A stretch of DNA of 64,000 nt from Terriglobia bacterium (GTDB lineage: Bacteria > Acidobacteriota > Terriglobia > Acidiferrales > UBA7541). The stretch lies in the NCBI GenBank assembly GCA_020073375.1, contig JAIQFG010000002.1, positions 1-64,000 on the forward strand, read 5' to 3'. The notes under the pieces were generated by a model, which did not search any database, was not told the DNA's origin, and saw only the letters and a list, made by a program, of their open reading frames with translations. The translations under genes and the position numbers were made by a program. The stretch's first letter is position 1, and each line of letters opens with the position of its first letter. Below, one piece after another: positions 3,282 through 16,265 of the stretch.

Positions 3282-3295
3282 GATTTGCGAAACAT

Positions 3296-3360
3296 GTAGC
3301 GCCCGCCTTCAGGCGGGCACGTTGTTTGCTCCAAAATGCCCGCCTGAAGGCGGGCGCTAC
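3296..3360. repeat. GTAG-type palindrome pair (GCCCGCCTTCAGGCGGGC subfamily)
   Basis: Begins GTAG and ends CTAC; two facing copies of GCCCGCCTTCAGGCGGGC-like palindromes are separated by about 16 bases. Lies 14 bases after the acyl-CoA dehydrogenase stop. The same element occurs at 16201-16265. REP-like architecture; could also act as a transcription stop or mRNA-stabilising hairpin. Confidence 0.8.
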
Positions 3361-3390
3361 AAGGAATAGTTTCATGGAGAATCCATTAGC

Positions 3391-4674
3391 GTGACATCGA
3401 AGAAACGAGTCCTGAGCGGCATGCGCCCCACCGGGCGCCTCCACATCGGCCACTATTTCGGCGCCCTGGAAAACTGGGTCCGGCTGCAGAACGATCCGCA
3501 ATACGAATGCTTTTTCTTCGTCGCCGATTGGCACGCGCTCACCTCGGATTACGCGGACACCTCGCAGGTCGCGCAGAATACCATCGAAATCGCCACCGAC
3601 TGGCTGGCCGCCGGCCTTGACCCGGCAAAATGCACGATGTTCATCCAGTCTTCGGTTCCCGAGCACGCTGAGTTGAATCTCCTGCTCTCGATGGTCACGC
3701 CGCTCGGCTGGCTGGAGCGCGTCCCCACGTACAAGGAAGCGCTCGACAACGTGAAGGACAAGGATTTGCATACGTACGGTTTTCTTGGATACCCGATCTT
3801 ACAGACCTCTGACATTGTTATGTACGGGGAAGTAGGCAGCCCACTCATCGTGCCCGTTGGTGAGGATCAGGTTTCTCACGTCGAACTGAGCAGGGAGATC
3901 GTTCACAGGTTCAACACATATTACGGTCTGGAAATCGATGTCACGAATCTTATGCAGGGCAAAGAGGGCGCCGGATTCGTCAATTTGATAGGCTACGTGC
4001 ACCGAACAAAGCCGGTTGGTGATCCCGACGCAGAAAGCCGATCCGAATTTCGTCGCAACATCCGTGCGGTAGCATTGGAATCCGGGATTTCCAATTTTCT
4101 TCAGAGGATAGACGAATACCGCAAATACTTCTCTTACGAGTTAAAGCTGAGCGAACCTCAGGCTCTTTTGACCAAGGCTCCCCGCATCCCCGGGACCGAC
4201 GGCAGGAAGATGTCCAAGAGCTACGGCAATTTCATTTCGCTCAGCGAATCGGACGAATCGATCCGCACCAAATCGCGTGCGATGATGACCGATCCGGCGC
4301 GCAAGCGCCGCACCGACCCCGGCAATCCCGACGTCTGCCCGGTCTACGACTGGCACAAACTTTTTTCGCCACCGGAAACGCTGCAATGGTCCGCCGAAGG
4401 CTGCCGCAGCGCCGGCATCGGTTGCATCGAATGCAAATCCGCGATGGCCGACAATTTAATCAAGTGGATCGCCCCGGTCCGCGCCCGCCGCGAGGAATAC
4501 GCCTCACATCCCGGCAAGGTCCTGCAAATCATCGACGAAGGCTCGGTCAAGGCCCGCGAAGTCGCGCAAAAAACAATGGCGCGCGTCCGCGAAGCAGTAT
4601 TCAATTGGAAAGACAAGCGCGCGGAAGTCGGACAACAGCAATCCTCCGCGCGAAACGTCAAGGTGGGGGAATAA
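3391..4674 (+). CDS. trpS: Tryptophanyl-tRNA synthetase, [4Fe-4S] type, with an internal insertion
   Basis: Class I synthetase charging tRNA-Trp. HIGH signature at residues 18-21 and KMSKS in DGRKMSKSYGN. The C-terminal region has cysteines spaced C-x21-C-x6-C-x2-C (DVCPV ... EGCRSAGIGCIEC), closely matching the iron-sulfur TrpRS known from Thermotoga. GTG start at 3391 with GGAGA ten bases upstream. At 427 residues it is long: between RFNTYYG and SEPQALLT there are about 70 residues (about 180-250) that ordinary TrpRS lack. DNA from about 3780 to 4160 uses AGG, ATA, CTT, TTA, GTT and TCT codons that are rare in flanking genes, so the block may have been acquired by recombination. All visible catalytic motifs remain. 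Followed one base later by scpA. Confidence 0.93.
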   Translation: MTSKKRVLSGMRPTGRLHIGHYFGALENWVRLQNDPQYECFFFVADWHALTSDYADTSQVAQNTIEIATDWLAAGLDPAKCTMFIQSSVPEHAELNLLLSMVTPLGWLERVPTYKEALDNVKDKDLHTYGFLGYPILQTSDIVMYGEVGSPLIVPVGEDQVSHVELSREIVHRFNTYYGLEIDVTNLMQGKEGAGFVNLIGYVHRTKPVGDPDAESRSEFRRNIRAVALESGISNFLQRIDEYRKYFSYELKLSEPQALLTKAPRIPGTDGRKMSKSYGNFISLSESDESIRTKSRAMMTDPARKRRTDPGNPDVCPVYDWHKLFSPPETLQWSAEGCRSAGIGCIECKSAMADNLIKWIAPVRARREEYASHPGKVLQIIDEGSVKAREVAQKTMARVREAVFNWKDKRAEVGQQQSSARNVKVGE

Positions 4675-16200: not shown

Positions 16201-16265
16201 GTACCGCCCGCCTTCAGGCGGGCACGTGCGCGACTCCGACGTGCCCGCCTGAAGGCGGGCGCTAC
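16201..16265. repeat. Second copy of the GCCCGCCTTCAGGCGGGC palindrome pair
   Basis: Almost identical to 3296-3360: GTAC in place of GTAG at the left, CTAC at the right, the same two facing palindromes. Eight bases after the MFS stop and upstream of the amidohydrolase 3' end, so it lies between convergent genes. Confidence 0.8.

Follow-up and report, generated by a model that had tools for sequence, protein, structure and literature searches.

The tryptophanyl-tRNA synthetase gene trpS of the Terriglobia bacterium contig analyzed here (a stretch of 64,000 nucleotides, hereafter the window) contains an insert that is a hypervariable domain. In its family of soil Acidobacteriota, replacement of this domain between closely related species is much more rapid than that of the other parts of trpS, the product of which is the essential enzyme charging tRNA with tryptophan. 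The window copy was probably imported from another genus together with some neighbouring sequence, as judged from alignments and trees. The explanation we favour, with a chance that we put slightly below even, is that this imported copy of an exchanged hypervariable domain has been retained as a surface for evading an antagonist.

The trpS gene extends from position 3391 to 4674 of the forward strand and encodes 427 amino acids. By sequence, its product is a genuine TrpRS: it matches PF00579 (4e-59), scores 266.1 bits against TIGR00233 with its curated cut-off of 176.75, and contains the class I signature KMSKS in intact form. The best solved match is the T. maritima-type TrpRS 2g36 (6e-103; 43% identity over the structural alignment), which is assigned to the same two families. 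The two proteins share the same catalytic core and the same cysteine quartet, but 2g36 lacks the insert and leaves window residues 179-248 unmatched. The gene is present as a single copy in the assembly, with one match in the window's genome (G000), and is followed by scpA, which adjoins trpS in 64 of the 71 loci examined. The cysteines C316, C338, C345 and C348 (4336..4434, forward strand), aligned to those of 2g36, are invariant in a 64-sequence alignment; they are the four cysteines of the putative cluster site of an Fe-S TrpRS of the T. maritima type. An earlier note, made from the letters of this DNA, had stated that the KMSKS loop and these cysteines are unaffected by the unusual block upstream of them, and this holds. 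The GRKMSKS loop (4201..4221, forward strand) lies shortly 3' of the block and is common to the sister species. Just 5' of trpS, at 3295-3361, a 30-nt inverted repeat (TGTAGCGCCCGCCTTCAGGCGGGC...) is found, the core palindrome pair of which is present again at 16206-16260 (4 matches, chance expectation none), as in a REP-like element. One family genome contains a second, distant TrpRS without insert at 49% identity (L082, G025:C122:1189-2151), which is a paralogue or a contaminant, the contamination of G025 being 4%.

The insert domain comprises 75 amino acids (LEIDVTNLM...FSYELKLS; 3928..4152, forward strand) and was delimited by alignments, AlphaFold and profile hits. Alignments with solved TrpRS leave out residues ~179-248 (2g36 covers 5-178 and 249-403), and about 70-75 residues are absent from most other class members, in agreement with the ~70 extra residues claimed before. 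The AlphaFold model contains helices at residues 184-188, 191-200, 214-231, 233-239 and 241-246, with local pLDDT values of 63-96. When modelled alone, the domain folds likewise (mean pLDDT 83.7), and it is thus confidently predicted to be a small helical domain. Nearly every TrpRS examined from the window's own family (f1) has an insert of 60-102 amino acids at the same site, ruling out a single-lineage oddity, and so have some members of f2 and f3. A G..N(F)...L core is conserved; since most f1 inserts share it and fit one profile, their sequences suggest that they are largely homologous and have split into many divergent types. The insert may also be lost or shortened: L066 (G006) has only 30 amino acids at this site, a remnant or short form, as compared to the 70 amino acids of L010 (G018) from the same genus.

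No credible sequence or fold relative of the insert was found in Pfam, PHROGs, PADLOC, PDB or BFVD, matches being absent or at background. A known domain was rejected on the basis of the Pfam, PADLOC and PDB sequence and fold searches; scattered PADLOC matches among 59 members (best 0.0012, each in one member) were treated as chance. Searches for a mobile element or intein in the host gene gave neither a family match above background (Pfam, PHROGs, PADLOC) nor a fold match, and a phage origin was rejected because PHROGs and a viral fold library were negative. A scan of viral contigs did detect TrpRS genes, but these are only distantly related. In 89 family genomes all strong hits of the insert profile lie inside trpS, and silent donor cassettes were not detected, with no hit outside trpS stronger than E=0.015, a limit which divergent copies may escape.

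The insert is part of a block of low GC3. This block had been placed at 3780-4165, which is nearly exact: the best two-change-point model gives 3763-4167, with a GC3 of 0.56 inside and 0.78 outside, and a log-likelihood ratio of 10.1 as compared to 8.8 for the highest of 150 permutations. The AGG, ATA, TTA, CTT, GTT and TCT codons pointed out for it are present. Of 68 family members, 65 have a lower GC3 in the insert than in the flanks (Wilcoxon p=1.6e-12), and amino-acid composition was ruled out as the source of this deficit (expected 0.737, observed 0.566). Foreign codon use is therefore mainly a property of the insert throughout the family. In the window, the low-GC3 tract is peculiar in extending unusually far upstream (fourth lowest of 68 for the difference between middle and flank). 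At the same site, the relatives carry inserts of different sequence rather than the same insert, and these are GC3-poor rather than of normal GC3, contrary on both counts to what the earlier note had named as grounds for dropping its claim.

Codon comparison with the sister genome G005 (L002), the flanks of which are 96% and 94% identical to the window, delimits a recombinant block at 3766..4179 (forward strand, +/- about 15 nt), in line with the GC3 change-points. Synonymous identity to L002 is ~0.7 through codon ~120, is abruptly lost at ~122-126 and abruptly returns at ~260. The upstream part of the block (3778..3927, forward strand), apparently co-imported, comprises GFLGYP..., the long loop GEVGSPLI, the GEDQ motif and the helix leading to RFNTYYG. 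Its dN to L002 is 0.228 with dS saturated, as compared to a dN of 0.020 and a dS of 0.53 in the flanks. At the amino-acid level, it is nearest to TrpRS of g7 and g5 (0.86-0.88), with values of 0.74-0.79 for the window's own genus. The 18-residue loop and the pre-insert helix of the window match g5/g7 better than the own genus, and the loop change that had been claimed is real, as the window reads YGEVGSPLIVPVGEDQ where three insert-bearing congeners have the four residues shorter YDA(D/N)(L/F)VPVGEDQ.

In the insert tree, the window insert grouped with g5/g7 members with a support of 98, whereas the flank data reject a clade of the window with g5/g7 (AU p=1.3e-5). Taken by themselves, the insert data are compatible with the genus grouping (AU p=0.29), the insert tree being weakly resolved with its 80 columns. 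The case for exchange thus follows from the support for the foreign grouping together with its rejection by the flanks. Of the two interpretations offered in the earlier note, the recombinational mosaic therefore stands, given the abrupt breaks against the sister, the resemblance of the block to other genera and the flanks that reject this grouping.

Hypervariability is found across the family, many or most of the genomes compared being MAGs. Pairs with close flanks (94-98% identical) often carry inserts that are no more identical than those of unrelated pairs (background, 4-30%), for example 27% for L001/L002, 28% for L022/L030 and 4% for L004/L009. In 13 of 14 chosen close pairs, a stretch of 60 amino acids is 12-28% identical as compared to 81-93% elsewhere. 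For 71 insert-bearing sequences, the Spearman correlation between insert and flank identity is 0.08, whereas that between the N- and C-terminal flanks is 0.76. The nearest neighbour belongs to the same genus in 63 of 64 cases when judged by the flanks, but in 36 of 64 when judged by the insert. Likewise, the flanks require 15 genus changes on the tree, which is the minimum, and the insert 32; the flank tree agrees with taxonomy while the insert tree does not. This discordance between insert and flank histories is that of a recombinationally exchanged hypervariable domain. Within the window's genus, four insert-bearing genomes carry three insert types: the window insert groups with g5/g7, the inserts of L002 and L003 with g11/g13/g5 and that of L005 with g7 (L005/L008 weakly supported). 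Each of these foreign groupings is rejected by the flanks (AU p between 1e-5 and 2e-4). In g12, the species L067 has the g2/g6 insert type and its sister L119 the g12 type. The second interpretation, an accessory domain, holds as well, but not as a one-off, since nearly the whole family carries and exchanges it.

We place the accessory domain after the acceptor-arm helix of TrpRS and before its KMSKS strand. Recombination in conserved flanking motifs, GFLGYP / VPVGEDQ on the left and PRIPGTDGRKMSKS on the right, would swap its types between species as well as between genera; conserved motifs for such recombination are present on both sides of the insert. In the window, a g5/g7-like donor may have supplied a tract of ~410 bp with loop, helix and insert, and the exchange would have been kept because new types are favoured. 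Replacement of old types by new ones, next to catalytic flanks that still follow the species tree, argues for selection on the insert. The turnover by exchange thus suggests diversifying selection, perhaps for evasion of an antagonist that targets TrpRS. In E. coli TrpRS, the helix preceding the insert site and CP1 read the acceptor arm (PMC12135181). Surfaces that read tRNA are expected to be conserved and not so variable between sister species, so that the effect on tRNA binding considered before found no support, the earlier interpretation being partly supported overall, and the driver is most likely not a partner of the cell's own. The likeliest driver would be a trans-acting antagonist, for instance a phage protein, a toxin or kinase, or an antibiotic, that docks at this surface or close to it, and the domain would be an evasion surface and neither a catalytic nor a tRNA-reading part. 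Turnover of the insert would in this respect resemble an arms race with a putative antagonist.

A nearly neutral mosaic, in which ordinary homologous recombination between related trpS genes replaces a weakly constrained domain at no benefit, since a tolerant region lies between conserved motifs, appears less likely to us. The low GC3 would fit relaxed codon selection or AT-richer donors, and in same-type pairs the insert dN exceeds the flank dN. In L032/L034 it is 0.043 as compared to 0.009 at equal dS (dN/dS about 0.5, faster than the flanks), and this faster amino-acid change within one type indicates that relaxed constraint contributes. Other same-type pairs are strongly constrained, with a dN of 0.029, a dS of 1.11 and a dN/dS of about 0.03 for L014/L016, which speaks against neutrality. 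Purifying selection within some types, the intact frame and the predicted fold indicate that the insert is more than filler and probably functions as a domain. Replacement in nearly all of the chosen close pairs, while the conserved flanks keep the species tree, and retention of fold and core motif also argue against a neutral mosaic.

Other synthetases point in both directions. In the same species pairs, GluRS lacks a low block (minimum 0.68), and this is not what a neutral mosaic would lead one to expect. MetRS has a low block in 2 of 9 pairs, and TyrRS a C-terminal one in many pairs; such sharp differences between close species favour a neutral origin, and, given the turnover of a peripheral TyrRS domain, the cause is not necessarily confined to TrpRS. 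In MetRS of L266/L274 and L265/L276, a segment of 60 columns, likely in the anticodon-binding part, is 27-33% identical as compared to 84-86% elsewhere. In tyrS (G000:C13:68187-69383, outside the window; L202-L220), it is the C-terminal S4-like domain that differs sharply, G026/G094 being 97% identical elsewhere and 60% over the C-terminal part, and the types of this domain seem to recur across the genera g1, g5 and g12. Furthermore, among 169 orthologous ORF pairs of the window contig and its G005 counterpart, the trpS insert contains the second-lowest 60-column segment, the lowest (0% identity) being judged an alignment gap. A strict pattern filter applied to these pairs returned nothing, since the flanking segments overlapped the imported loop region.

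It is also conceivable, though unlikely, that the insert serves regulation or protein docking and, in each lineage, co-evolves with an endogenous partner that changes fast, instead of with an enemy. A folded, constrained domain with a variable surface and the widespread synteny with scpA are consistent with this. However, insert types cross genus borders alone, whereas such a partner would have to move too, and none stands out next to trpS, where scpA is what usually follows.

A more specific form of antagonism, in which an insert beside the KMSKS loop blocks HipA/HipT-like toxin kinases from phosphorylating its serine, is in our view distinctly improbable. TrpRS has a precedent as a toxin target, as HipT phosphorylates E. 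coli TrpS at Ser197 in KMSKS and S197A abolishes phosphorylation (PMC6581861). HipA_C kinases are patchy in the family, exceeding the cut-off in 27 of 89 genomes, and the equivalent serine is replaced by alanine in g3, g4, g8, g9, g12 and one g13 member. This RMAKS sequence, in which the serine corresponding to E. coli Ser197 is lost, is found in L017, L018, L021-L030, L067, L068 and others, including one of the two g13 genomes. Inserts are still hypervariable in RMAKS clades, so that a HipT-like kinase cannot by itself account for the variability. HipA_C matches in the window genome all stay below the threshold, GluRS, the HipA target, retains LSKR and has no variable block, and TrpS is apparently not acted on by Legionella HipT (PMC10653801). 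Given the latter result and the hypervariable RMAKS inserts, HipT-type kinases are a candidate and not the answer.

An assembly artefact, with chimeric contigs joined at the conserved motifs at both edges of the block, is very improbable even though most genomes are MAGs, as the pattern recurs with open frames in about 70 assemblies, contiguous ones included, and as exact matches to the relatives compared do not exceed 26 nt (left junction), 23 nt (within the block) and 27 nt (right junction), except for 41 nt with the sister L002 in the right flank, which leaves a chimera with a compared relative unsupported.

An accessory TrpRS insert at this site is already known in the sense that NF008922 (PRK12283) models one. 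TrpRS of this kind, e.g. that of Legionella adelaidensis (L151), have the insert at the same site as the window, and the gene order trpS-scpA-scpB-rluB in Legionella is the same. The window protein aligns with NF008922 over the full length of the profile, but its score of 483.4 bits is below the curated cut-off of 572 for the whole protein, as are those of four other insert-bearing members (471-510 bits); the Legionella TrpRS scores 718. The family insert profile gave no detectable match to the Legionella insert, although divergence could hide homology. In L151, the trpS-scpA-scpB-rluB block is located on a record labelled plasmid, where its neighbours are apparently housekeeping genes. Within the same phylum, Acidobacteriaceae TrpRS (L121-L124, L126) carry an insert of the 'APWEL' type at the same site. 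Unlike in the window's family, this is one conserved type across two genera and not hypervariable, and it is missing from other members of the same genus; that it stays one type indicates that the site itself does not force variability. Neither a description of such a TrpRS insert nor of hypervariable exchange of such a domain in an aminoacyl-tRNA synthetase was found in the open-access papers searched.

Target-recognition domains of type I restriction HsdS proteins are homologous, divergent and swapped by recombination in conserved flanks. The trpS insert may be viewed as analogous, but HsdS domains sit in defence proteins, whereas its host is a single-copy housekeeping enzyme. As markers for the history of whole genes, aminoacyl-tRNA synthetases are treated as slow and vertically inherited; trees of trpS in family f1 must exclude the block. 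Part of an essential enzyme can thus turn over like a surface antigen while its flanks differ by only a few percent. This turnover offers a direct handle on the selective agent acting on TrpRS, and the ready-made natural insert variants allow swap experiments. We tentatively propose, as quite possible, that the exchangeable domain changes the face which TrpRS turns toward phage, toxin or antibiotic antagonists. If true, together with the turnover of the TyrRS C-terminal domain, this would make translation enzymes a wider arena for arms races.
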